Below, piece by piece: positions 6,196-31,158 of a stretch of 34,271 nt of DNA. Within the stretch, counting starts at the first letter, position 1. Each line of letters opens with the position of its first letter. The position numbers and the translations under genes were made by a program. This DNA is from a virus: IMG/VR virus record IMGVR_UViG_3300029907_000025, positions 1 through 34,271 of that record. One strand, 5' to 3'. The notes under the pieces were generated by a model. The model had not been told where the DNA came from and did no database searches. It worked only from the letters and a program-made list of their open reading frames with translations.

Positions 6196-6690
6196 ATGGC
6201 TCGCCCGGCGGTATCTTCCTACACGGTCAAAAACCGCAGCAAGTATATTGGCTCGAACCTGCATCAAGTCGTCCTGCGATCAAGCTGGGAACGCACGGCC
6301 GCGCTTGAATTTGATACCAATCCAGCGATTCTCGGTTGGAGCAGCGAGAGCATTTCGGTCGCCTATTTCCATCCGTTCAAACAGAAATGGACGATCTACA
6401 AGCCGGACTTTTTCGTTGTCTATGTGGACAACACCGGGCGCACCCACAAGGCGATGATGGAGGTCAAACCGCGCAAGGAAGCCGCCCGCGAATTCATGGC
6501 CAATCCAGCCCTGATCGGCGGCAAGAACCCCCGCGCCACCAAAGCCATGGCGGCGATTCTCGCGGTCAACGCGGCGAAATGGAAAGCCGCTTTGTACTAT
6601 TGTCAAAAACAAGGCTGGGAGTTTGTGTTGTTGACCGAAGATGAGATTTTTCAGCAGCGCATGGTGCCGAGTGGGGCGAAGCGTAATTAA
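6196..6690 (+). CDS. Head completion nuclease, T4 gp4-like (TnsA-type fold)
   Basis: This 164-residue protein matches T4 gp4, which acts at the portal vertex after packaging so that tails can join. The motif RSSWERTAALEFDTNPAILGW is the family hallmark. The nuclease core is visible as Glu in SWER, Asp in YKPDFFVVY and the pair in MMEVKPR, giving the E...D...ExK pattern of TnsA/PD-(D/E)xK endonucleases. The gene starts 4 bases after the preceding tail gene, so it is likely co-transcribed. It is slightly longer than T4 gp4 (150 residues). No strong ribosome binding site is visible, which suggests translational coupling. Confidence 0.88.
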   Translation: MARPAVSSYTVKNRSKYIGSNLHQVVLRSSWERTAALEFDTNPAILGWSSESISVAYFHPFKQKWTIYKPDFFVVYVDNTGRTHKAMMEVKPRKEAAREFMANPALIGGKNPRATKAMAAILAVNAAKWKAALYYCQKQGWEFVLLTEDEIFQQRMVPSGAKRN

Positions 6691-6763
6691 ATCCATTTGT
6701 CAAGATGGTTGTAAACCCCGCAGTTCATCCTCAATCTGACGATCAGACACAGGAGGACAGCGA

Positions 6764-7174
6764 ATGGCAAGAACCGGACAATGGGTGCGCGTGATGGCCG
6801 ATTACGGCACGGAAGGACTTTGGACGCGCGAGGGTTACATGATGCTGGGCAATGCGCTTCCGGTCAGCACAGCGCTTATGGCTCGGCTTCGTTGCTGGTG
6901 TCGCTGGTATGAAACCAACACTGATTATTGCATCGCCGATAGCACATTCGATTATGTCGATTTCGCTGCCACCGGGTTGGAGATCGCAAAAGCCATCAAA
7001 CGCGAACTGCCCAACTGGACCATCATCTATTTCGATGAAGCCATCCTCCATCAACTGATCCTGACCGGAGCCTTCATCGGTGACGAGACCACTCACCCGC
7101 CGCAACATCTCTGGGATTACGAGATCACCACAGACAATAATCTAAATATACCTCATGACCCAGCGCCTCCGTGA
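6764..7174 (+). CDS. Conserved hypothetical protein
   Basis: This 136-residue protein is not assigned to a known function. It has a very good ribosome binding site, AGGAGG at 6750-6755, 8 bases before the ATG. The sequence shows GLWTREGYMMLGNALPVSTA, a Cys/Trp-rich RLRCWCRWYETN, and IKRELPNWTIIYFDE. It appears to be a small alpha/beta protein with no signal peptide or membrane helix. Proteins with a similar xELPxWTxxYFDE segment are, to my knowledge, found as orphan proteins in Proteobacteria, but I cannot name a family. Its end overlaps the next gene by 20 bases. In T4 a baseplate wedge gene (53) follows gene 4, but no similarity to gp53 is evident. Confidence 0.75.
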   Translation: MARTGQWVRVMADYGTEGLWTREGYMMLGNALPVSTALMARLRCWCRWYETNTDYCIADSTFDYVDFAATGLEIAKAIKRELPNWTIIYFDEAILHQLILTGAFIGDETTHPPQHLWDYEITTDNNLNIPHDPAPP

Positions 7175-7673
7175 ATTCCTCGATATCCCGCCGCCGCCCG
7201 AACCTGATCCCGAGGCGGCCATCGACGAGCAAGGCCAGCAATTGCGCTATCGCGGCCAGCAATTGCTGGCGCAATTGAATGACGGGACGGATCATGCGAT
7301 CGGTCTCGATACGGTTTATACCGAGGTGCTGGGCCACGCGCGCGATCTGATGGCCTATGGTTATAACGTGGACGGTCCTCGGGCCAGGGGGTTCTTCGAA
7401 ATCGCCGCATCCATGTACGGGCATGCGGTCAGTGCCAAAAACACCAAACGCGAGGCGCAATTGAAAACCCTGCGTCTCGCCTTGGAGGCCCGCAAGATTG
7501 ATTTGGAAGAAAAACGAACCAATCACACCGTGGGCCAGATGGCGGCGACCATTGATCCAGACGGAGCAACCATCGTCGTCGAAGATCGGAATCAACTTCT
7601 AGCGCGCTTGCGTCAACAGCTAGTCGATGAAGCCGCTGGCCCGCTCACGCCGTCCGCGCGTGTTCCGGAGTAA
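7155..7673 (+). CDS. Probable small terminase subunit (T4 gp16-like)
   Basis: This 172-residue protein has the size and architecture of T4-type small terminases (gp16, 164 residues). There is a variable acidic/Pro-rich N-terminus, a segment HARDLMAYGYNVDGPRARGF, and a long central charged helix (about residues 75-115, with SAKNTKREAQLKTL and EARKIDLEEKRT) that would form the coiled-coil core of the ring. A C-terminal tail follows with NQLLARLRQQL. The small terminase recognises phage DNA and stimulates the large ATPase/nuclease, which is not in this window. Assignment rests on architecture and context beside gp4, not on a decisive motif. A coiled-coil scaffold or regulator is the alternative. 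The start overlaps the preceding gene. Confidence 0.55.
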   Translation: MTQRLREFLDIPPPPEPDPEAAIDEQGQQLRYRGQQLLAQLNDGTDHAIGLDTVYTEVLGHARDLMAYGYNVDGPRARGFFEIAASMYGHAVSAKNTKREAQLKTLRLALEARKIDLEEKRTNHTVGQMAATIDPDGATIVVEDRNQLLARLRQQLVDEAAGPLTPSARVPE

Positions 7674-7677
7674 ATAC
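7670..7677 (+). promoter_or_regulatory. Late-promoter-like box GTAAATAC
   Basis: GTAAATAC overlaps the stop codon of the terminase-like gene and lies 25 bases before the next ATG. A transcript starting near 7684 would include the ribosome binding site AAGGTAGG. Confidence 0.35.
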
Positions 7678-7702
7678 CAGATATAGCGCCGAAGGTAGGT
7701 CA

Positions 7703-8470
7703 ATGGCATTACAGAAATATATCGAGGACGCTGCCAAACAGTATTCTTTTCGTCTCAAAGCGGTCGTTCCAATTGATGATACAGCGATGGATCGCATCGA
7801 AATGGTGCTGGCAAAGTATGATCTGTTAACAATCTCCAAACCGTATAAGACGATCGTGCAGCGCGCGCCGCTCGACTTTCCGCAGCTTCGCGCCGCCGAG
7901 GTCTACATCCTCGACCTCACGCTTGGTCTGCCGGTCGCCCCGCATATCCTGAAAAACGATATTCGCGATGTGCTCAATGCGCCCGAGGATTCCATTGTGT
8001 TGCGAACGCGCAGCGAACCGGGCGAGATCGAGAGTGAAAACCTCAATGCCTTGGCTGATATTGCGGTCGAAGCGGAACGCCGGGGATTGAAGCCTGCCGC
8101 GTTGTTGAACGATACCGCCTATGATGACGCCGATCCTATGGACAGCGAGCATCAACTGTATGGTAACGGTTACAACAGTGCGTTTCTGTCTCATCTGCAA
8201 TCGGTTCGCCAGGAGCGAGACGATCTGCGGCAGCGCGTGGCCAATGCGCCATTCCAGTGGCTTGATCTGCCTGACCGTAAGGACCCACAGGATTTCAACG
8301 CTGCGATTGCGGATGCGCCGAAGGTTTACACCAAGGCGGTCAAACGCACGGAACCGATTATGAGTCTGTTGGGGAATACGGCGCCAGCAAGAACCGAAAT
8401 CCGTAAAGTCTATATCGATGACAAGGGAGACCGCGTTGTCCTGACGAGGAAGTTGGCCGATGCGCGCTGA
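7703..8470 (+). CDS. Conserved hypothetical, probable virion-associated protein
   Basis: This 255-residue protein starts MALQKYIEDAAKQYSFRLKA, with AAGGTAGG just upstream. The N-terminal 100 residues contain a predicted ferredoxin-like alternation, including LDFPQLRAAEVYILDLTLGL and VAPHILKNDIRDVL, then a linker and SEHQLYGNGYNSAFLSHLQS. Similar proteins occur, to my recollection, in the structural regions of cyanophage- and pelagiphage-type T4-like viruses, without a known role. Context between the terminase-like gene and another putative virion protein supports a structural or assembly function. It overlaps the following start codon by 11 bases, suggesting translational coupling. Confidence 0.7.
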   Translation: MALQKYIEDAAKQYSFRLKAVVPIDDTAMDRIEMVLAKYDLLTISKPYKTIVQRAPLDFPQLRAAEVYILDLTLGLPVAPHILKNDIRDVLNAPEDSIVLRTRSEPGEIESENLNALADIAVEAERRGLKPAALLNDTAYDDADPMDSEHQLYGNGYNSAFLSHLQSVRQERDDLRQRVANAPFQWLDLPDRKDPQDFNAAIADAPKVYTKAVKRTEPIMSLLGNTAPARTEIRKVYIDDKGDRVVLTRKLADAR

Positions 8471-13139: not shown

Positions 13140-15306
13140 CGTCCGCGAAGTCATAGATCGGGCTTTTGCGGAGAACGGCGCGGTGCATCGTCTGAAAGGC
13201 GAGCACCGGCCCCTGCAATACGAATTCGCCCTCCGCTTTGGCCAGTATATCGAGATCGGCACGCTCCCCTGGATTCAGGAGGCGCGCGCCGGGGTCGGCA
13301 AGACGCTGCCATTGCTGATCGGCCTGATGCTCGATAAAATGCTGAATAATCGCAACGGCCTGATCTCGACCTTGACGCGTGCGTTGCGAGAAACCTACGT
13401 GACCGAAACAGAAATCGCCCTGCGGATCGTGCAGGAGACGCTGCACGAGATGCATGAGGATGATGCGTTTCAAATCGTCTCGGTGGAAGAATTCAAGAGC
13501 ATCACGTCCTATTTGTCGCCGACCAAACTCCGCCTGCTACGGCAACGCTGGAGCGAAGCCGATGAAACGGAACGTCGGTTGGTTGAGTTTTTTCTGGATA
13601 CGGTCTATCAAGGCGAGGCGCCGGAATTCACTGAATATTACGGCACGGGTGGGATACTCCCGGCCAATACTACCGAACTCGACTGGTGTCTGTGCAGCGA
13701 AGATCGCGATCACCCGGTCGGCGAGGCGGTCTTTGCGGCTCGCGAGATCACGCGGGATACTGCCGCGATCTTACTGATCACCCATGCGCTGTTCATTCGC
13801 AACAATCTGAGCAGTGGCAAATTGCTGCAAACCGGCCCGGCGTGGAACATGCGAAACGGGCTGGCGGTTATCGATGAGGCGGATAAATTGCCACCGGTCG
13901 CGGCTGATGCGGTGACCTATTCGGTCTCGCACAACGGCATCGCCATGCTGGCGCACCTAAAACACGTATCGGTCGCGTCATCACGCGCCTATCACTCGGC
14001 ACGTGACCTGATCCTCAGCGGCTTGCAGATTTTGTCCAATGAACTCATGTTCGACGACGCTGGGTTTCTGATCCGTTCTCAGAGCATCCTTGATGATCCG
14101 GACGCCCCCACGCTGAAGGCCCTACAAACGATTTATGACGGTCTGCAAGGCCTGCAATCGGTCGCCGCAGGGCAGTTCAATCGCGCCGATCGCGATATCA
14201 TCCAGCACGATATGCTGCGCCGCGAACGCGAGGAAATTCGCGCCATCCTCGCGGGTCGGCAATATAATCCGGCCCAAGTGGCGCAATATAGCAAGTTTGA
14301 CCGCGAGGGCAATCCTGATCTCGAACTGACGGTCAATTTCAGCAGTGGCCGCAACATGATGAATCAGCTTTGGCGATCGCCAGTGCATACCTACTCGGGG
14401 GTGGCGCTGATCTCGGCGACCCTGAGTGATCGGCCGCCGAGTGATCGCAGCTATCGTAAATTTCTGCGGGCAATTGGGTTCGATCCGCTGATCGATACTA
14501 TACTTGAACAAAAACCCTTGCCGTCCAGTCGCCGGGATCAATACGGGGGCATTGCGCATGTGCTGGTCGTCGATCGTGATCTGACGCTCTACCCGATCGA
14601 TCCAGCGCAACCCAGTTTCAACAGCCATGAATTTGTCAAATTCGTCGCCAAGGCTCTCATGGTCATCGCCGAATCACAGGCGCCGGAGCAGCGTATGTTG
14701 GTGCTGTTCCAGCAATACGCCCTATTGGAGGCGGTGTGGGCATTGGTGCCAGGGCTGCACCCGCTGATCAGCAAACGCCAGCGCGAAAACAACATGACAA
14801 CCGCGCTACAAGGATATGCCGCCCGGCCGGGCGGCATCTGGTTCGGTGTCGAGTGGGAGGGCGTCAATTTCGTGTCCGAGACGGGCAAAACCCTGGCTGA
14901 TATCGTCGTCATTCCCCGTATTCCCCAACCGCCGATCGATATCATGCGGCGATCGCGGCTGAATTACATGTTTGAGGGCGCCCACACCGAGCAAAGGGCT
15001 GAGGGCATTGCCCTCAACGAGGCAGTCGATTACGCCTATCAGCGGATGGTCCAGGGCATCGCCCGTGGCATCCGGCACAGTCACGACACCATCCAGTTGC
15101 TGGCGATCCTTGATGTGCGGTTCCCGGTTCCTGCGCATGTTGCCGATACCCGACTGATCGCGCGCAGCATTGGCGATTCGGGCAAATTGTTTCACAGTTT
15201 CGATCAGATGCTCGATCCCTACGACGTGCGGCAATGGTCGCAGATCACCAAGGACGGCACCATCACCACCATTCTGGACGATCGCGAATGGTATGACGCG
15301 GGCTAA
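13129..15306 (+). CDS. csf4: Type IV-A CRISPR-associated DinG-like helicase Csf4
   Basis: This 725-residue SF2 helicase of the DinG/XPD family is the signature of subtype IV-A, where it unwinds DNA in a 5'-3' direction at the crRNA target. Motifs are in order: RPLQ (27-30), Walker A EARAGVGKT (51-59), Walker B VIDEADKL with DEAD at 249-252, motif III-like ISATLSD (about 428-434) and motif VI QGIARGIR (642-649). Only two close Cys residues (CLC) occur in the region where E. coli DinG binds an iron-sulphur cluster, so no cluster is expected, as is usual for Csf4. The ATG at 13129 has AAAGGGG just upstream and is preferred over a GTG at 13108. It is the last gene of the operon. Confidence 0.9.
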   Translation: MVVSVREVIDRAFAENGAVHRLKGEHRPLQYEFALRFGQYIEIGTLPWIQEARAGVGKTLPLLIGLMLDKMLNNRNGLISTLTRALRETYVTETEIALRIVQETLHEMHEDDAFQIVSVEEFKSITSYLSPTKLRLLRQRWSEADETERRLVEFFLDTVYQGEAPEFTEYYGTGGILPANTTELDWCLCSEDRDHPVGEAVFAAREITRDTAAILLITHALFIRNNLSSGKLLQTGPAWNMRNGLAVIDEADKLPPVAADAVTYSVSHNGIAMLAHLKHVSVASSRAYHSARDLILSGLQILSNELMFDDAGFLIRSQSILDDPDAPTLKALQTIYDGLQGLQSVAAGQFNRADRDIIQHDMLRREREEIRAILAGRQYNPAQVAQYSKFDREGNPDLELTVNFSSGRNMMNQLWRSPVHTYSGVALISATLSDRPPSDRSYRKFLRAIGFDPLIDTILEQKPLPSSRRDQYGGIAHVLVVDRDLTLYPIDPAQPSFNSHEFVKFVAKALMVIAESQAPEQRMLVLFQQYALLEAVWALVPGLHPLISKRQRENNMTTALQGYAARPGGIWFGVEWEGVNFVSETGKTLADIVVIPRIPQPPIDIMRRSRLNYMFEGAHTEQRAEGIALNEAVDYAYQRMVQGIARGIRHSHDTIQLLAILDVRFPVPAHVADTRLIARSIGDSGKLFHSFDQMLDPYDVRQWSQITKDGTITTILDDREWYDAG

Positions 15307-15319
15307 CAAACCAACGGTT

Positions 15320-15348
15320 GACACTCGCCTGTAGGCGAGTAGGTTCCG
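15320..15348. repeat. Solitary CRISPR-repeat-like hairpin after csf4
   Basis: Fourteen bases after csf4 lies ACTCGCC-TGTA-GGCGAGT (15323-15340), a perfect 7-bp stem with a 4-base loop, the size and shape of repeats cut by Cas6e-type enzymes. Taken as a 29-base unit it ends in an 8-base tail after the stem. On the minus strand the tail after the stem reads GTCAACCG, close to the common type I-E/IV-A 3' handle ending AACCG. No second copy follows at 60-61 bases, so this is not an array. It could be a degenerate last repeat, a regulatory repeat mimic, or part of the csf4 terminator. Confidence 0.4.
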
Positions 15349-15378
15349 ATCGGCCTTGGGTAGGAGCGGAAGGAATGC

Positions 15379-15411
15379 GGTTGCCGCCAAATGGAGGTTC
15401 TGGCGGCAACC
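15379..15411. terminator. Bidirectional hairpin between csf4 and the convergent gene
   Basis: GGTTGCCGCC (15379-15388) and GGCGGCAACC (15402-15411) form a perfect 10-bp stem with a 13-base loop in the gap between convergent genes. There is no T-tract on either strand, so it may block read-through by structure rather than act as a classic intrinsic terminator. Confidence 0.5.
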
Positions 15412-15414
15412 ACT

Positions 15415-15735
15415 TCACCCCGGTTGAATCGTCTCGATCATTGCATTGGCGCCATCCATCAGCACGAATAAAGCGGCGTCTTGCTGGCGCGCAAAGGCGA
15501 TGATGAGTTGCAGTCCCTGAATGGTCTGATGGGAAATCACCGCCCATTCTCCGTCGAAATGTTCCCCCAGCCACTCATTCACCCGCCACATCTCGATCCC
15601 GTAGCTATCGAGAACCGGGACCGCAACGTAACGCAAACTCCAATCGCATGGCACCACCCCCCGATTTAAGCGCGGCCGTAGAAGATCATCCGGTTCAACC
15701 GTCAAACCAGCAAACTGCACCGGGCCATAGAGCAT
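15415..15735 (-). CDS. Hypothetical protein downstream of the VWA gene
   Basis: This 106-residue protein has no recognised family. It starts MLYGPVQFAGLTVEPDDLLR and contains YVAVPVLDSYGIEMWRVNEW and LIIAFARQQDAALFVLMD, suggesting a small alpha/beta domain. GGAGAAAG lies just before the ATG. It begins 13 bases after the VWA/peptidase-like gene on the same strand and is the last gene of the MoxR-VWA transcript, so it may work with that pair. Its stop lies four bases from the convergent hairpin behind csf4. Confidence 0.65.
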   Translation of the reverse strand: MLYGPVQFAGLTVEPDDLLRPRLNRGVVPCDWSLRYVAVPVLDSYGIEMWRVNEWLGEHFDGEWAVISHQTIQGLQLIIAFARQQDAALFVLMDGANAMIETIQPG

Positions 15736-15748
15736 TGACTTTCTCCGG

Positions 15749-16927
15749 CTAGAAGGAGGCGTGAATCGTCAGCCCGTGGGGCGCGGTCACCTTTGGATTG
15801 CTATGGACGATGAACAGGGTGTCGGCCAGTTCCGCATCGCCCCAATCATTACCCACCAGCCCATCAGTGAACACCAAAATTCGATCCGGCTGCATCTGCT
15901 GCTCGCGCATATAGGTCCAGCAGACGCTTGGCGCTGTGCCCCCACCGCCTTTGAACGGATAGCTGGTGATTTCATTGGCGTTGAACGGGGTGAATACCTG
16001 GACGCTGTAGACGGCGGTATCGAACGTGCCGATAGTCAAGGAGAAATCCTTGAAGGTCGCCATGATGGCCGCGCATTCGCTGAGGAAGGCGGTGATCATC
16101 GCCTGGGTGGTCGAGGCCGAGCCGTCGAGCCACGCCACGGCCTCCACCCGCTCCATGACATCCTGCCCCGGCAAAAACAGATTACTCGTCCAGGCCCGCC
16201 TGGAAAGCCGCGCATAGGTATAATCAAAGCGCACCACCGATCGCAGGTTGCTACAGATGATCTGGCGCCAGTTGAACTGGGGCGCGGTGAGCCGATCGAT
16301 GAGGCGCTGCATCCCGAGCGGCAGCTTACCCGGCTCAATGGTGCGGGCCGCGCGCAGCAGGTCGGCGATAAATTCGTCGTGAATCTCATCCAGTTCCTTC
16401 GGCGACGGGGCAAGGACACTATCGGGATCGGCGGTCCTATCGCCATGCCCGGCCTCCAGATGCATATCCAGCGACGATTTGATCACCACCGCATCTTTGA
16501 TCAGCAAGTCATAGACTTCTTCACTGGTCAGGTCATCGGTATAGCGCGGATCGTACAGACCACATTTCGGCATCTGGCCGATGCCATCCTTGACCAGCCC
16601 ATAATTGCAGATGAAATCGATCGCCATGTTCCAGAAGTCTTTCAGCCGAGTGCCCCGCCGACCGATATGATCGAAGATCACATGGCGCACCTCATGCGCC
16701 ATGACGAAAATCAGTTCCGCCGGTTCCAGCCGGTCCACGAATGTGCGATTATAGAACATTTTGCGACCATCGGTGGCCATCGTTGGACACCATTTACTGG
16801 CGTCCTCCAAATCCAATCGCATGGTCAATTGCCCGAATAACGGTTCCTCCAACAGCATTTTAACGCGTGTTTTAAACAGTTTCAACACAATGGGGTCGTC
16901 AAAATCGGTCTGCATGATCCCGTTCAC
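15749..16927 (-). CDS. VWA-like protein with metallopeptidase-like N-terminal domain
   Basis: This 392-residue protein combines two domains. The N-terminal half carries HEVRHVIFDH (His78, Glu79, His82), the HExxH zinc signature found in DUF2201-type putative metallopeptidases. The C-terminal part has VAWLDGSAS (DxSxS, a MIDAS metal site), then FKGGGGTAPSVCWTYM and ILVFTDGLVG, which are VWA-like motifs. Such proteins pair with MoxR-type AAA+ ATPases, and here the MoxR gene lies directly upstream, overlapping by the four bases GTGA. The pair probably acts as a chaperone or metal-insertion/remodelling machine; the target is unknown. An in-frame ATG at 16915 is an alternative start. A phage role in maturation of a structural complex or in host takeover is inference. 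Confidence 0.85.
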   Translation of the reverse strand: MNGIMQTDFDDPIVLKLFKTRVKMLLEEPLFGQLTMRLDLEDASKWCPTMATDGRKMFYNRTFVDRLEPAELIFVMAHEVRHVIFDHIGRRGTRLKDFWNMAIDFICNYGLVKDGIGQMPKCGLYDPRYTDDLTSEEVYDLLIKDAVVIKSSLDMHLEAGHGDRTADPDSVLAPSPKELDEIHDEFIADLLRAARTIEPGKLPLGMQRLIDRLTAPQFNWRQIICSNLRSVVRFDYTYARLSRRAWTSNLFLPGQDVMERVEAVAWLDGSASTTQAMITAFLSECAAIMATFKDFSLTIGTFDTAVYSVQVFTPFNANEITSYPFKGGGGTAPSVCWTYMREQQMQPDRILVFTDGLVGNDWGDAELADTLFIVHSNPKVTAPHGLTIHASF

Positions 16928-18288
16928 AGTACGACCGTGCTGTATAGTTTCAGGAATTTGCTAAAATGCGGCATCCGCTTTTGGAGGAACCGCAGCTTGT
17001 GACCGGTGAGCGCCATGGTCGCCGCCATCACTGCCACGTCGGGACGGAAATTGGCCATGATATAGGCAAAGGCGGCGTCACATTGGGCAAACCATGCGAG
17101 GCGCGGCGCATATTCGTTAAAATCGCGCTCCGCGCCATAATAATCGGCTTCGATGGCTTCGGCGCGACGTTGGACTTCGTACCACAATTGCACACTCACA
17201 CTGTAGGCGATTTGCGTCTCAAACTGTTTGTTGACCGGTGAGAAGGTCCGTAGCGAGCCATCCAAGATGCGCCGGATGTTGGGCATATCCTCCATGAACT
17301 TGCGGTGTTGCAAGAATTCATTGCCGAGCACGTCGCCGATCGCGCCACAGATTAAGGCCCGCAGCACGACCGGCTCGGGTGGGCGAACGGCGGTGATCTG
17401 CCGCGAGACGAATTCCCAAGTGCGTGGCGTGGCAAAACTCAGTTCGACCGAGTCCGGCCGGAAGTCATTTGTCTTGTTTGGAAAACTGGTTAGGAAGCCG
17501 ATCACCTCAGCGGCGATGGCATGCGTCGAGGCCCAGCGGAACCAATCATCCCAGTTAAATTCCATTTCCACGTGGATGAACCGATTGGCCACTGGTTTGG
17601 AGATTTGATAGGTCACCCCGCGATCGATATCCCGGTTGCCCATCGCCAGAATCATCACCTCGTTCGGCACCACATAATCGCCGATCCGGCGATCGAGGAT
17701 CAATTGATAAGCTGCCACCATTACCGAGGGTGGCGCCGAGTTGAATTCCTCCAACGCCAGGATGGCGCGCACCGTGCCTGTCACCCGCCATTTGATCTTG
17801 CCGCGTACCGGTTGCTGATCCTGACCAACTAATGACACAGTGAAATTATTGGCCTTGCGTGTGACCAAGACGGCGATTTGATCGGGCGCCAGGGCGAACA
17901 CCTCAATCAGCGGATCGGTGCAATAGGCCACCCCATTGTTGCCGCACGGATTGTAGAACCGAAACACGGCGGCCCCATCGACTTCATCGATCTTGTCGAA
18001 ATCCAGGTCACGCGGAAACACCAGGGGGGGCGTCCAAATCACGCCCTTCATGTTGTCCACTTCGCCCATCATGGGCACGCCGCGAATATCCTCGGGCAGC
18101 ATCTGGCTGAGACGCACATCGATAAAAGCGATGCCCAGCGCATCCGCGCATTGGCGGGCTATGGCGCTCTTGGAAATGCCCGGTGAGCCATGGACATAGA
18201 GTGATATTTTTGTTTCGAAGCTAGCACAGATCGCCGCAGCGATCTGCGATGGCGACAGCTTGTTGAGGCCCGTTTTCGAGATTTGCAT
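16924..18288 (-). CDS. MoxR-family AAA+ ATPase
   Basis: This 454-residue ATPase has Walker A GSPGISKS at residues 34-41 and Walker B LALEEFNSAP at about 177-186. The stretch FIDVRLSQMLPEDIRGVP is typical of MoxR proteins, as are MGNRDIDRG and ISKPVANRFIHVEM (arginine-finger region). MoxR proteins remodel or activate partners that carry VWA domains, and the overlapping downstream gene encodes such a partner. Walker A and B are about 140 residues apart, more than in ordinary MoxR proteins. An extra segment of about 60-70 residues (roughly 110-172) includes a putative beta-rich piece and may give partner specificity. A good sigma70-type promoter lies just upstream. Confidence 0.9.
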   Translation of the reverse strand: MQISKTGLNKLSPSQIAAAICASFETKISLYVHGSPGISKSAIARQCADALGIAFIDVRLSQMLPEDIRGVPMMGEVDNMKGVIWTPPLVFPRDLDFDKIDEVDGAAVFRFYNPCGNNGVAYCTDPLIEVFALAPDQIAVLVTRKANNFTVSLVGQDQQPVRGKIKWRVTGTVRAILALEEFNSAPPSVMVAAYQLILDRRIGDYVVPNEVMILAMGNRDIDRGVTYQISKPVANRFIHVEMEFNWDDWFRWASTHAIAAEVIGFLTSFPNKTNDFRPDSVELSFATPRTWEFVSRQITAVRPPEPVVLRALICGAIGDVLGNEFLQHRKFMEDMPNIRRILDGSLRTFSPVNKQFETQIAYSVSVQLWYEVQRRAEAIEADYYGAERDFNEYAPRLAWFAQCDAAFAYIMANFRPDVAVMAATMALTGHKLRFLQKRMPHFSKFLKLYSTVVL

Positions 18289-22992: not shown

Positions 22993-24240
22993 TTAGCTGA
23001 CCGCCGCCAACTTGGTATAGATCAATTCAGGCGCGGTCTGCGCCGTCACGGTGCTTTCGTGGATAATCACCTGCTCGACGCCCCCAGCATGCAGGTCAGG
23101 CAGCAGGAATTGCACATGGTTCAGGATATCTTCCATGACCCCGCGCAACGCCCGGCCGTTGGTTTTCCGCAAGACCGCGATACGCGCCATGGCGCGTAAC
23201 GCACCTTCGTCAAAGTGCAGGCGCACACCGTCGATAAAGAACAGCTTCACGTATTGCTTGACCAGCGCATTCTTCGGCAACGTCAAGACTTCGACCAACT
23301 GATCTTCGCTAAGATCGTCCAATATCGCGTAAACCGGGATGCGGCCGACCAATTCCGGGATAAAGCCGAATTTGATCAAGTGTTCCGGTTGCAGCCGCCG
23401 TAACCAATCGGCGGCGGTGCGGGGCGAACGCTCGATTTTCGCGCCATAGCCGATGCTGCCCATCGAATCCAGTTCCCGTTCGATGATCTTGTCGAGGCCG
23501 GTAAATGACCCCGCCAGGATAAACAGGATATTGCGGGTATTGACCTTCACCAGATCGACGTTTGGCCCGCGCCGCATACCAGAGGGCACCATCACGTCGG
23601 AGCCTTCCAGCAGTTTCAACAAGGCTTGCTGCACGCCTTCTCCGCCCACATCACGGGTGGTGCTGCCGGTGGCATCGCGCGAGCGTTTCTTATCGATCTC
23701 GTCAAGAAAGATGATGCCGCGCTCGCATTTCTGCACATCCCCATCAGCGGCTTGCAGCAAGCGCGCGACGATATCCTCCACGTCCGATCCGACAAAACCG
23801 GCCTCGGTCAACGAGGTGGTATCGTAACACACGATCGGCAGGTCCAAAAACCGTGCCACGGTGCTGACCAACTCGGTTTTGCCGACGCCAGACGAGCCGA
23901 TCAACGCCAGATTGGACTTGTCGATCTCGACCCCGTCCATAATCGGATTTGCAATGCGTTTGTAATGATTATACACCGCCACCGCCAATTTCTCTTTGGC
24001 ATCATTCTGGCCGATGACAAATTGATCCAGGAACTCCTTGATCGAACGCGGGGTGGGCGTCGCGGTGACCTTGTCACGACTCTGGGCGAGGGTTTCTTTG
24101 GTGGCAATTTCGGCCAGGATTTCAACACATTGCGAAACACATGTGTCGCAGATGAAAATATCACCCGGTCCGGCAACCAATCGTTTAATTTGTTTCGCGG
24201 ACTTCGCGCAAAACGAACAATGCAACTGCTGAGGATTCAT
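22993..24240 (-). CDS. clpX: ClpX-like ATP-dependent unfoldase with zinc-binding domain
   Basis: This 415-residue protein is a full-length ClpX. The N-terminal zinc domain has Cys8, Cys11, Cys31 and Cys34 (CSFCAKS and ICDTC). The AAA+ core has IGQNDAKEKLAVAVYNHYKR, Walker A GSSGVGKT (115-122), TTSLTEAGFVGSDVEDIV, Walker B IIFLDEID (176-183), the VGGEGVQQALLKLLEG sensor stretch and LAGSFTGLDKII. ClpX normally feeds proteins to ClpP; no clpP is visible here, so it may recruit the host ClpP or act alone as an unfoldase. The IGF-type loop that docks ClpP is not obvious. The ATG at 24240 has AAAGGTGG upstream and is preferred over a TTG at 24255. A late-type box lies at 24265-24258. Confidence 0.93.
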   Translation of the reverse strand: MNPQQLHCSFCAKSAKQIKRLVAGPGDIFICDTCVSQCVEILAEIATKETLAQSRDKVTATPTPRSIKEFLDQFVIGQNDAKEKLAVAVYNHYKRIANPIMDGVEIDKSNLALIGSSGVGKTELVSTVARFLDLPIVCYDTTSLTEAGFVGSDVEDIVARLLQAADGDVQKCERGIIFLDEIDKKRSRDATGSTTRDVGGEGVQQALLKLLEGSDVMVPSGMRRGPNVDLVKVNTRNILFILAGSFTGLDKIIERELDSMGSIGYGAKIERSPRTAADWLRRLQPEHLIKFGFIPELVGRIPVYAILDDLSEDQLVEVLTLPKNALVKQYVKLFFIDGVRLHFDEGALRAMARIAVLRKTNGRALRGVMEDILNHVQFLLPDLHAGGVEQVIIHESTVTAQTAPELIYTKLAAVS

Positions 24241-24257
24241 AACCACCTTTCCCAAGC

Positions 24258-25419: not shown

Positions 25420-25746
25420 CTAGCTTACGGCGCTCCACCAGACGCCAGTGGATGAATCACTTTGTATTCGCACCATGACCTCGTGATCTTTGATCAAGGT
25501 CTTGGTCAGACTGCGCATCCGATTGACCAGATCACCGATCTGCTCGGAGGCGAGCTTGGTATCATCGGGGATCGGACTGCCAAAATCAACCGCCAAGACG
25601 GCAGTGGCAAAATTCGGGCCATTGATGTGCAGCTTGGGCGAATTGGCCAAGGTGACCAGCCATGCCTGGAAGACCTCGATGTCAGTGAATTTGGCCTTAC
25701 GCGGCCGACGCGGACGTTGCAGAGTGGTATCGGAAGATTCGCTCAT
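25420..25746 (-). CDS. Hypothetical protein upstream of the macrodomain gene
   Basis: This 108-residue protein starts with a basic disordered stretch (MSESSDTTLQRPRRPRKAKF), then FQAWLVTLANSPKLHINGPN and IGDLVNRMRSLTKTLIKDHE, and ends VWWSAVS. It has no recognised family. It shares a strand with the macrodomain gene, separated by only 14 bases, so a joint function is possible. A CTAAATAA box lies 72 bases upstream. Confidence 0.6.
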   Translation of the reverse strand: MSESSDTTLQRPRRPRKAKFTDIEVFQAWLVTLANSPKLHINGPNFATAVLAVDFGSPIPDDTKLASEQIGDLVNRMRSLTKTLIKDHEVMVRIQSDSSTGVWWSAVS

Positions 25747-25829: not shown

Positions 25830-26441
25830 ATGAAGTTTAGCAATATTGGGGCGATAAGCATGGTGATCATCGGCTTGGCAGGGCCAGCTTGCGCCGAGCC
25901 GCGTTCGGATGGGATTGTTCAGAGCACAGTCCCGATCGCACACCAAGTCCAGACCATCCTGCGGCTACTCGACCTGATCCCGGACCTCGCCCATAGCGTC
26001 CCGCCCCTCCGCGCGCAAGCTGTCTGCCTTGCCCTGGGGCTCTATCATGAGGCGCGTGGGCAATCCGCCAATGAACGCATTGCGGTCGCGCAGGTGGTGT
26101 TTAACCGCATGACGGAATCTGGCGATTCAATTTGCGGCACGCTCTGGGCGCACAGCGGCCGGTACTTTCAATGGGTAAAACGTCCGGTCAGCCAAATTCT
26201 GCCGCACGAAGGCGCCGTGTGGGCGTCCCTCCAGCACTTGGCGCTCGCTTTGATCGCTCATCGCCCAGCGGATATCACGCACGGGGCAACCTACTTCTAC
26301 AATCCCAAACTGTGCGCGCCAGCCTGGGCAGATACGGGAACGGTGACTGCACGGTTCGAAAACGTGTTCCTACGCCTCGACCCTAAATCACCTCACTCCC
26401 ACGACACGCGCGGAGCATCCGCATCGCACGGGCGCAAATAG
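25830..26441 (+). CDS. SleB/CwlJ-type cell wall hydrolase, secreted
   Basis: This 203-residue protein has an N-terminal signal-like segment, MKFSNIGAISMVIIGLAGPA, ending CAEP, and a SleB (Hydrolase_2) domain from about residue 68. That domain shows AVCLALGLYHEARGQ with the catalytic-type Glu, ERIAVAQVVFNRM, then SICGTLW, YFQW and DITHGATYFYNP, PAWADTGTVTARFENVF. These enzymes cleave peptidoglycan glycan strands. A signal peptide on a phage lysin implies Sec export of the enzyme to the periplasm, with lysis controlled differently from holin-dependent endolysins. The 15 C-terminal residues are polar. The gene has no clear ribosome binding site and overlaps the end of a convergent gene. Confidence 0.88.
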   Translation: MKFSNIGAISMVIIGLAGPACAEPRSDGIVQSTVPIAHQVQTILRLLDLIPDLAHSVPPLRAQAVCLALGLYHEARGQSANERIAVAQVVFNRMTESGDSICGTLWAHSGRYFQWVKRPVSQILPHEGAVWASLQHLALALIAHRPADITHGATYFYNPKLCAPAWADTGTVTARFENVFLRLDPKSPHSHDTRGASASHGRK

Positions 26442-28035: not shown

Positions 28036-28064
28036 GTCCAGTGTTAATCACAACAGGACATTTT

Positions 28065-28490
28065 ATGACAGAATCAAAACGCACCAACATTTTCACCGTC
28101 ACCTTCGACGGGTTTGCCGGATTATCAGAGCAGGCCAATGCTGATCTATCCAGACTGGTGCTCTCTGCGACCCGGCCGGTGTATCATGTGACTGGCGCGA
28201 ACGAAGGCAAAATCACGTTTGCGAATGATCTGGCCAATGTGGCATTGACCAAGGTCCGGGACCAAGTGCGGCGCCAGACGCGAGACAAGCAGTCCAGTTT
28301 CCTTCTCAGCATGCATGATGTGACGGTGCAGGGCATGCGGATCAGTGCCCTGATCTTCGTCACGTGTTTCATCACCACAGTCGAACTGACGCCGCTGGAT
28401 TATCTTACGCCAGACACGCAGCGAATCGAACTGACCTATACCTACGCCGACATCGATATCAGCTTGTTGTCGCCCAGCGCCCCGCCTTAA
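28065..28490 (+). CDS. Small putative tail-tube-like structural protein
   Basis: This 141-residue protein begins MTESKRTNIFTVTFDGFAGL. It contains FLLSMHDVTVQGMRISALIF and ends with a polar strand, DTQRIELTYTYADIDISLL. The alternating beta pattern and the final ELTYTY strand are reminiscent of gp19-type tail tube folds, so a tail or baseplate role is possible; this is a fold impression, not a firm match. The ATG at 28065 is preferred over a GTG at 28041 that lies too close to the late-type box. A strong terminator overlaps its stop codon. Confidence 0.55.
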   Translation: MTESKRTNIFTVTFDGFAGLSEQANADLSRLVLSATRPVYHVTGANEGKITFANDLANVALTKVRDQVRRQTRDKQSSFLLSMHDVTVQGMRISALIFVTCFITTVELTPLDYLTPDTQRIELTYTYADIDISLLSPSAPP

Positions 28491-28502
28491 AGAGGCGGGT
28501 TT
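28481..28502 (+). terminator. Intrinsic terminator overlapping the stop codon
   Basis: CCCGCCT (28481-28487) and AGGCGGG (28493-28499) pair around TAAAG and run into TTTCT. The stop codon TAA lies in the loop. The 3' half belongs to the dispersed 22-base element also found at 24765-24789. Confidence 0.85.
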
Positions 28503-29200
28503 CTGGCGCGAAGATGATAAATCATCGCCAGATTGAAATAGGCCTTGACTGGCGAAACATCATTCCTATGTGCCGTTCTCGACGCAGGACATTACTATCG
28601 GGGTCATGTTCGCCCCAATCAGGGAGGCCGGGAGTAGACCGGTAGTACCATTAGGCAGCGTCGGCTGGCGAGACGGGCATCACGGGTGGTATGTGCATCA
28701 AAGCTCACCGCGTGAGTAACGGCTGCTCGGCTTCTTCGGAAGCGAAAGGCATCATTCAAAGAGGATAGCGCTGTCTAGTTGACATCTATCCGCTCATACC
28801 GGGTCCCCCAACTTGCTCGGTATGAGAGCGTCTTCCCTGGAATGGGAAGATAACCGTTGATCCGTTTAAAGCAAACTACGAAGCACAAGGCGTCGCTTCA
28901 CCGCATAGGGCTTGGAAACTCCCCTATTCCCCCTGGCAACAGGAAGGGTGATAAGTCGTGGCGATCAAACCCCAAAGCTTCCCCGTTAACCAGTAGGTTG
29001 GTTACGGCACATGTGTTGCCAGGATCGCGATATGGGCTGCTATATGCTGGTCTCGGGAAACCGCCAGCACCCAATAACATGGGTCGTGGCTTTGTGGGCA
29101 AAGTGCTGGGTTCATCATTTTGATAATCATTCGTCCCTCTGTGCAGTCGAGATTGTTGTTCTCGATTTCACAGGGGGCAAAATGCTATCGGCATGGGCAT
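28503..29200 (+). ncRNA. Candidate giant structured phage RNA (GOLLD/ROOL-like class)
   Basis: Nearly 700 bases without a convincing gene contain a dense series of stems. Examples: 28503-28531 (CTGGC...GCCAG enclosing GATGAT/ATCATC); 28704-28716; GCTTC-TTCG-GAAGC (28730-28743); GGATAG/CTATCC (28763-28791); CTCATACCG/CGGTATGAG (28793-28826); TCTTCCC/GGGAAGA (28831-28850); ATAGGG/CCCTAT (28905-28927); long-range CTGGCAACA/TGTTGCCAG (28933-28941 with 29014-29022); GCTGG-TCT-CGG-GAAA-CCG-CCAGC (29046-29068); CCCTCTGTG/CACAGGGGG (29135-29177). UUCG and GAAA tetraloops occur in this sense only on the plus strand. Length and phage setting resemble the ornate large RNAs GOLLD and ROOL; membership is not proven. 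Ends are approximate. Confidence 0.6.
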
Positions 29201-29325
29201 CACGCAGCAGCGCTTCAAAAAATGCGTCGCGACCCAACGCGCAGAGCGATCGCGAACATCCCCACGAAAACGCGAACCATGCAAACAAAAACCAATCCTA
29301 TCTGACATCAACAGCCTGCGGCTGA
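29182..29325 (+). CDS. Possible 47-residue protein with a sequestered ribosome binding site
   Basis: An ATG preceded by AGGGGG opens a frame beginning MLSAWASRSSASKNASRPNA, polar and rich in Ser, Asn, His and Lys. The AGGGGG forms the 3' arm of the stem 29135-29177, so translation would be blocked unless the stem opens. It could equally be a chance frame within the structured RNA. No homology is recognised. Confidence 0.25.
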   Translation: MLSAWASRSSASKNASRPNAQSDREHPHENANHANKNQSYLTSTACG

Positions 29326-29455: not shown

Positions 29456-30040
29456 ATGCCTTTGGATGGAGTTGAATTCCATAACCAGTTTCGATCAGTC
29501 GGCTTGACGGAAGCGCTAACGCGTCTCGGCATTCGTAGCGTCGATCCCGATATCCTGAACGCCCACAAAGCCGAACAAGTGGCGTTGCATCCGGCTAATT
29601 TCGCCAGTCGGCACCAAACCATAATCTTGATGATGTTTTCGTTGATTCCCGCGACCTGCTTGGTCACTGCGATCTACCTGTTCATCGCGGTCGGCGGACC
29701 ATCGGCCGTGTTCGGGATATTAGTACTGCTCGGCGTTCTCATCGGCATCGTGGTCGCGTCTGAACATGTCGTCATACGTCGAGAGGCGGTCTGGACTGAA
29801 AAGGTCTTTGGGTTATACTCGCATGAGTTGACGTGGCGTGTGCCCCACCAGATCATCACCCTGCTACGTCGGTTGCGGACCGAGGTCGGTGCGAACTCAG
29901 CGATCAGACTGATCTACGGGGAATTGTCCCAAGGCGCGGCCGTTCTCGATCCCTATCTGATCATCATCGATCGGAAAACCGGTGCCCGCTGCATCCTGGG
30001 GATTTGGAATGACGACACAATACTGCATATCGCGAGCTAG
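29456..30040 (+). CDS. Small membrane protein of unknown function
   Basis: This 194-residue protein has two adjacent hydrophobic helices, at about residues 60-79 (LMMFSLIPATCLVTAIYLFI) and 82-101 (GPSAVFGILVLLGVLIGIVV), with soluble N- and C-terminal parts. The C-terminal domain has VFGLYSHELTWRVPHQIITL and VLDPYLIIIDRKTGARCILG. No family is recognised. The ribosome binding site AGGAGG is very strong. A holin-like role is possible from the helix hairpin, but the large soluble domains are unlike most holins, so a host-membrane modifier is equally likely. Confidence 0.7.
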   Translation: MPLDGVEFHNQFRSVGLTEALTRLGIRSVDPDILNAHKAEQVALHPANFASRHQTIILMMFSLIPATCLVTAIYLFIAVGGPSAVFGILVLLGVLIGIVVASEHVVIRREAVWTEKVFGLYSHELTWRVPHQIITLLRRLRTEVGANSAIRLIYGELSQGAAVLDPYLIIIDRKTGARCILGIWNDDTILHIAS

Positions 30041-30495: not shown

Positions 30496-31158
30496 TTATA
30501 GCATCGTCGGCCCGGAGCGGCTGTCTACGCTGGGCAGACGGACCATGGAACCGGTCCAAGGCATCACTGTGGGATGGTAACTGATCATCGGTTGCTGGGC
30601 CTGCCGCCGGAGGGTCGCGACCATCATTTGCGTGGTTGGCACAGGAACCGCGCAGGCCAGTTTGAGAGCAGCGGCTTCCCGATCGGCTAAGCGATTAAGC
30701 CAGCCTTCGCCGAAGATCGCGAAATTGCCCCGTGTGCGGTAATAGGCGCCCTGCGCTGTGGTCAACGCATCGATGACCTGCATTGCATTGAGTTTAAGCA
30801 GACAAGCGATGGTATGGGCGCCGATCACCCCATCGACATTGGTCCCCAGCACGCCTTGCAGCAATTTCGCGCTGGCCGACACCCCGGCATTGACCGCCAT
30901 ATCGAATACACTCAACGCGATCCCGGCCGGTAGCTGATCGCCCCCGATGGGTGCCCAATACAGTTTCACGTAGACGCCAGAGACGTCGCTATCCGTGATC
31001 TGCGCCAGATCGCTACAGGTCAAACTGGCATTATGTTTGAACACGCGATAGACCGGCAGGGTGATTCCGTGCATCGTGCAGCCCCCGGTATCAGCCGGAT
31101 TGTTCGACCAACCGCCTTCACGCTGCAAAACGAAGTCCAGGCAATCGGGATACGACAC
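30496..31158 (-). CDS. GH108 endolysin (N-acetylmuramidase)
   Basis: This 220-residue enzyme has the glycoside hydrolase family 108 signature LQREGGWSNNPADTGGCTMH with catalytic Glu14, followed by GIT. A second region, FDMAVNAGVSASAKLLQGVL and VDGVIGAHTIACLL, corresponds to the rest of the catalytic domain and the PG_binding_3 domain (GxxG...T). It cuts the glycan backbone of peptidoglycan at lysis. No signal peptide is present, so it should depend on a holin. The start is GTG with a weak GGAA upstream. The C-terminal 45 residues (VPTTQMMVATLRRQAQQ onward) extend beyond the usual domain. With the SleB-like enzyme it gives the phage two wall hydrolases. Confidence 0.9.
   Translation of the reverse strand: MSYPDCLDFVLQREGGWSNNPADTGGCTMHGITLPVYRVFKHNASLTCSDLAQITDSDVSGVYVKLYWAPIGGDQLPAGIALSVFDMAVNAGVSASAKLLQGVLGTNVDGVIGAHTIACLLKLNAMQVIDALTTAQGAYYRTRGNFAIFGEGWLNRLADREAAALKLACAVPVPTTQMMVATLRRQAQQPMISYHPTVMPWTGSMVRLPSVDSRSGPTML

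Follow-up and report, generated by a model that had tools for sequence, protein, structure and literature searches.

The viral sequence of 34,271 nt analysed here (IMG/VR record IMGVR_UViG_3300029907_000025, positions 1 to 34,271; hereafter the window) carries, on its plus strand, one copy of a large non-coding RNA of at least 640 bases with a conserved structure. Giant bacteriophages carry RNAs of this class, as do the chromosomes of related soil bacteria, and we consider it almost certain that the RNA in the window is real and belongs to a new family. We place it as a class unrelated to known ones within the large ornate phage-linked RNAs, since it is long, non-coding and phage-encoded, and has many covarying stems and a pseudoknot.

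As a first step in collecting relatives, a five-sequence tail-sheath alignment (A1) led to 80 viral loci. When the window RNA was compared with those viral records, two matches were obtained in a 457-kb record (E 2.6e-6 and 4.8e-6); both fall in non-coding regions, and local alignment showed their conserved blocks to be collinear. Profiles built from four and then seven copies yielded further members among motif-pattern matches in viral_contigs and genome_contigs. A full-length copy is present in the chromosome of Microvirga sp. VF16 (NZ_CP069354; profile E 1.3e-49), and blastn across Microvirga detected copies in 9 of the 48 genomes of the genus. R1, a covariance model built on the central domain, extended the set by genomes G044 and G035 within the genus. 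At family level it contributed another two, for an overall 9/298; at order level G358 was new, the figure of 3/397 including VF16 and one unconfirmed weak match, and at class level VF16 itself was the sole match (1/385). Because the wide searches applied strict filters, these genus-to-class counts are lower bounds. Identical scores were seen for the G004 and G005 matches, and for one G032 match and the G034 match, which look like the same copy in each case. One candidate, G369 (28.9 bits by R1), was left out after the profile HMM gave no confirmation. Among viral records, R1 found four copies in the 457-kb phage, two each in a 415-kb and a 240-kb phage, and one each in five others; copies within one phage are deeply diverged from each other. 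In all, 25 divergent members were aligned (A3; 43–75% identity, mean 53%), 12 from seven viral records of the jumbo-phage type and 13 from bacterial genomes, mostly Microvirga.

The viral relatives were reached only through the tail-sheath alignment and conserved-motif patterns. Searches of viral_contigs with single proteins of four neighbouring genes gave no matches, nor did blastn searches of phages and plasmids that used four family members as queries, and the pattern TGTCT..TTGACA..GTCC returned only the known phage and chance matches. The cultured jumbo phages Phosso, Atu_ph07, Paride, Vibrio 2.275, SCTP-2 and SE_PL did not match R1. In locus L351, two apparently identical RNA copies (6294–6845 and 14975–15526) lie inverted about 8 kb apart, and the neighbouring ORFs are duplicated too.

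In order to assess the structure, 17 helices were drawn from the VF16 sequence and counted over alignment A3 (Table 1). Standard pairs fill 82.2% of cells, compared with 68.2% after shuffling, and only 33–45% of cells remain paired when the partners are slid by 1–3 columns. Both partners changed in at least one member at 56 of the 78 pairs (38.5 in shuffles), giving 292 double-changed cells against 97 ± 9, and none of 500 shuffles reached the observed value for any of the three measures. Relatedness between members is left in by the shuffle control and removed by the slide control, and the two agree. Nearly all pairs of P6, P7 and P8 double-change, and a GNRA tetraloop caps P11 in 22 of the 25 members. 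Around P9 the alignment is loose; in a separate fixed-register test, the P9 stem forms with its own partner in 24 of 25 members and none of 5000 partner permutations scores as high, whereas the free-register version does not discriminate. Helix S2 of the 5' pseudoknot consists largely of unvarying G-C pairs and keeps its register in part only. An AACGG/CCGTT pairing was dropped from the model for want of covariation. We conclude that the 17-helix structure with its 5' pseudoknot is strongly supported, and the covariation that the original prediction named as its check is thus found among the homologues.

Single-sequence folding energy, only modestly below that of shuffles on both strands (plus, -263.7 kcal/mol, z -2.2; minus, -243.3 kcal/mol, z -2.9), would be compatible with chance folding of an untranscribed spacer, but the covariation in 25 divergent members, with its slide and shuffle controls, refutes that explanation, to which we assign practically no probability. 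It is this covariation, and not the fold energy, that indicates more than chance. The same energies show that one part of the original claim, a folding preference for the plus strand, does not hold; the strand itself is supported by an excess of G-U/U-G over A-C/C-A cells in paired columns (115 against 72), by the GNRA tetraloops and by the upstream motifs described below.

Table 1. Features of the window copy of the RNA and of its surroundings (window coordinates)
Feature	Position	Strand	Evidence or remark
Conserved neighbour gene	25420–25746	-	Opposite strand to the RNA in five jumbo phages
Endolysin gene	25830–26441	+	Homologues near the RNA in 240-kb and 415-kb phages
Possible promoter, TTGACT, 16 nt, TATGTG	28545–28572	+	Abuts the RNA; second hexamer weak; not called by a simple scan
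RNA core	28569–29210	+	Full-length profile HMM, alignment A3, counted structure
5' H-type pseudoknot	28585–28616	+	Covariation count
Pseudoknot S1	28587–28590 with 28608–28611	+	93% paired; double changes at 3/4 pairs
Pseudoknot S2	28601–28603 with 28614–28616	+	
P2 hairpin, CCGG/CCGG	28628–28642	+	98% of cells paired; 3/4 pairs double-changed
P4 helix, CGAG/CTCG	28669–28672 with 28726–28729	+	94% paired, covaries
P5 hairpin, GCTTC-UUCG-GAAGC	28730–28743	+	UUCG cap in window copy; helix present in other members
P6 hairpin, GGATAG/CTATCC plus TGTC/GACA	28763–28791	+	Lower helix: 7/7 pairs double-changed
P7 hairpin, conserved GTCC-x-CAA type loop	28793–28826	+	9/10 pairs double-changed
P8 hairpin	28830–28851	+	6/6 pairs double-changed
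P9, GATCC/GGATC	28859–28863 with 29022–29026	+	Closes variable domain; own-partner test
9-bp pairing, CCTGGCAAC/GTTGCCAGG	28932–28940 with 29015–29023	+	Inside P9 domain; specific to window copy
P10–P12 three-way junction	29034–29090	+	Covariation count
P11 hairpin, GAAA cap, 3-base bulge	29046–29068	+	GNRA in most members
Long 3' hairpin, TCCCTCTGTG...CACAGGGGG	29134–29177	+	Alignment counterparts; sequence very variable; pairs outside the count

The individual elements that had drawn attention to the region fared differently. Both the UUCG-capped stem (P5) and the GAAA-capped stem with a 3-base bulge (P11) are present as described. The 9-bp long-range pairing exists, one base off the predicted 28933–28941/29014–29022, but has no covariation support because its domain varies between homologues; this P9-closed domain is absent in three bacterial copies. 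P2 bears an additional insertion in other members. With respect to its boundaries, the window RNA may begin slightly upstream of 28569 and may continue beyond 29210. Most members extend past the core with a long hairpin, which often contains a GAAC-GAGC...GCGA-GUGA motif that we read as tandem G-A mismatches alternating with pairs, and then with a final GC-rich hairpin, so that the full RNA measures about 730–780 nt in several bacterial copies; since the window copy has diverged in this 3' continuation, the extension is claimed for the other members only. Imperfect direct repeats (ACTCAGG-x / ATCTAGG-x) flank the long 3' hairpin in the 3' part of A3 (about 29120–29205 in the window). Their variable part often agrees within one member, as with GGGTACGAGA, which occurs twice in VF16, and no pairing partner was found for the repeats.

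Searches with known RNA models place the family apart. With Rfam 15, no family matched the RNA, either at the gathering score in the window or at relaxed E in the RNA region; the matches that appeared at these thresholds were to miRNA and snoRNA families only and were judged spurious. The models for GOLLD and ROOL, which had been proposed as the families to search, gave no match in the window at the gathering score, none up to E = 10 in the RNA region and none up to E = 1 at the loci of 11 other members. Thus, of the two options put forward originally, a GOLLD/ROOL member or a new class, membership is not supported, whereas a new class agrees with the covariation and with the lack of a shared reading frame. 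No description of the RNA occurs in the titles and abstracts retrieved by literature searches on giant RNAs of phages, on jumbo phages and on RNAs of Rhizobiales. ARAGORN found no tRNA in the 34-kb window; tRNAs are present in the 13-kb stretches around 4 of 11 other phage loci.

Across the loci, 40 open reading frames of at least 70 aa lie mostly inside the RNA. Significant matches between loci join close relatives only and are mostly antisense to the RNA; the window appears in none of the best ORF matches, and the loci as a set share no conserved protein frame. The original description of about 700 bases without a credible gene is therefore borne out, the region having no known RNA family, tRNA or conserved ORF. 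Among the outcomes that had been named as grounds for rejection, neither a lack of covarying pairs nor a conserved reading frame was found in the homologues.

The first gene of the window is a tail-sheath gene (phrog_10581); its nearest annotated relatives belong to the jumbo phages Sinorhizobium phage Phosso (47% identity) and Agrobacterium phage Atu_ph07 (43%). The genes at 28041–28490 and 29456–30040, which neighbour the RNA, matched nothing in the phage collection or viral_contigs. Since an endolysin gene and a conserved opposite-strand gene recur near the RNA in other jumbo phages (Table 1), the window copy probably occupies a locus shared with them, the other copies being paralogues. A second endolysin-like gene (phrog_315) lies at 30496–31158 on the minus strand, so that two lysis genes flank the window RNA. 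Elsewhere in the window, adjacent minus-strand genes at 15749–18288 encode an AAA ATPase (phrog_1297) and a DUF2201 metallopeptidase/VWA-like protein (phrog_1314), and a ClpX-like AAA protein with a C4 zinc finger is encoded at 22993–24255. In Phosso (L002), where the RNA was not found, an annotated Ro-like RNA-binding protein is encoded among the tail genes (6302–7966).

A position between two plus-strand genes would suit a long structured leader or 3' UTR of an adjacent gene. However, adjacent genes differ between copies, the non-coding gaps measure about 1 kb and the RNA has upstream motifs of its own, making this explanation highly improbable. The bacterial copies lie near site-specific recombinases, namely a convergent serine resolvase in G062, G044, G067 and G078 and an integrase or large serine recombinase in others. 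Together with the multiple dispersed copies per phage and an inverted pair of copies in G078, this raises the possibility of a catalytic or intron-like mobile element, either a relative of self-splicing introns or the RNA of an RNA-guided nuclease, that spreads in phage genomes. We regard such an element as unlikely: the Rfam models for group I and II introns and HEARO were unmatched in the window, its RNA region and the loci of 11 other members, as were those for other mobile-element RNAs; the window copy is placed between two complete plus-strand genes and does not split one; the scanned loci show neither a reverse transcriptase nor a TnpB/IscB-type protein as neighbour; and the deep divergence of copies in one phage argues against recent insertion.

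Upstream of the RNA, phage and bacterial copies carry different motifs. TYGAC lies within 80 nt upstream of 11 of the 12 phage copies (3.2 in shuffles), with a second hexamer 18 nt beyond it in J457a–c, J240b and J86. The strong terminator that had been placed before the RNA is not borne out, as the hairpin at 28481–28499 overlaps the upstream stop codon and the terminator scan made no call there. All 13 bacterial copies have [AC]TAAATA 10–64 nt upstream (0.7 in shuffles), and the surrounding 11–19-kb loci contain 26 such motifs against 10.8 expected, about half of them being the boxes upstream of the RNA. The same motif precedes the tail-sheath gene in 18 of the 18 related viral loci tested (2.2 expected) and the window's own sheath gene, and it is enriched in the Phosso region (9 against 2.9 expected), with matches just upstream of annotated genes. 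In the jumbo phage CBB, which encodes a gp55-like sigma factor, ATAAATA is a proposed late promoter and resembles TATAAATA of T4 (PMC5259590). Since the box of the bacterial copies also stands before sheath genes and resembles a T4-type late promoter, the chromosomal copies may be switched on by an infecting phage. Most phage copies lack the box, so this reading is limited to the chromosomal ones. Alternatively, [AC]TAAATA could be part of a host sigma-70 promoter, since TYGAC is also present upstream of nine bacterial copies, in several cases with a spacing like that of sigma-70 promoters.

The carriers of the family are jumbo phages related to Phosso and Atu_ph07 and elements in the chromosomes of Microvirga and its relatives. 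We put at about even the chances that the RNA represents a new class of large architectural RNAs, transcribed independently, acting in trans and working in the manner of GOLLD and ROOL. Such an RNA would be made during infection and would fold, through its pseudoknot, three-way junction and GNRA loop, into a compact particle; by analogy with GOLLD, ROOL and the ICP1 RNA, it would act structurally and in trans late in infection, perhaps in the form of homo-oligomers binding or enclosing some component of the phage or of the host. On infection by a T4-type phage, its late transcription system would turn on the chromosomal copies through [AC]TAAATA. It is conceivable, and in our view improbable, that the RNA forms an assembly in phage-infected cells and that these copies, driven by the late promoter of the invader, produce during infection a variant which poisons or parasitises the RNA of the phage, in which case jumbo phages and satellites or defence islands would be engaged in an RNA-versus-RNA conflict.

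If the RNA instead served as a regulator or decoy, binding a factor of the host or phage such as the ribosome or an RNA-binding protein, the conservation of single-stranded loops in the alignment would be accounted for, and chromosomal copies competing for that partner would hinder the phage. Their [AC]TAAATA boxes are as expected of an infection-triggered parasite or defence element, and the VF16 copy adjoins a candidate defence pair of the ABC-3C/PDC-M68 type. However, no partner was identified, and the members have no protein partner or neighbour that all of them share. Among the loci scanned, only VF16 is clearly beside candidate defence genes, G061 having an orphan methyltransferase. We therefore consider a decoy a tentative and somewhat unlikely explanation.

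To our knowledge, the giant phage-linked RNAs described so far number no more than a handful, and a function has been established for none of them. The RNA resembles GOLLD in size (many GOLLD RNAs exceed 800 nt), in its association with phages, in having variable domains beside a conserved core and in that the function of both is unknown; it differs in lacking an Rfam match and a tRNA in the window (GOLLD is often near tRNA genes), in having several copies per genome and in its chromosomal copies with a late-promoter-like box. Likewise, ROOL is a large intergenic phage or prophage RNA with pseudoknots and no known protein partner, but the window RNA does not match it in Rfam and its locus lacks the tRNA island often near ROOL, although tRNAs do lie near 4 of 11 other phage loci. 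OLE RNA is also large, ornate and bacterial with extensive covariation, but it occurs in Gram-positive extremophiles and has protein partners, and here too the window RNA has no Rfam match. GOLLD and ROOL form RNA-only cages of unknown function, and GOLLD expression rises during lysis (PMC12286853); the locus in the window, known here from DNA alone, is lysis-adjacent. In the Vibrio phage ICP1, the most abundant transcript is a non-coding RNA of about 800 nt at the lysis cluster, and ICP1 satellites also make an abundant non-coding RNA (PMC7567579). Both the ICP1 RNA and the window RNA occupy a long non-coding gap at the lysis cluster of a lytic phage; the former was seen by RNA-seq, unlike the latter, and the family HMM did not match the ICP1 region.

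The new family would enlarge the group of giant phage RNAs by an unrelated class whose structure is well supported, which has several copies per phage and a lysis-adjacent locus, and whose chromosomal copies sit in soil bacteria that can be cultured, for example Microvirga sp. VF16. As the promoter link predicts that the chromosomal RNA is transcribed on infection, the role of giant phage RNAs would become testable.
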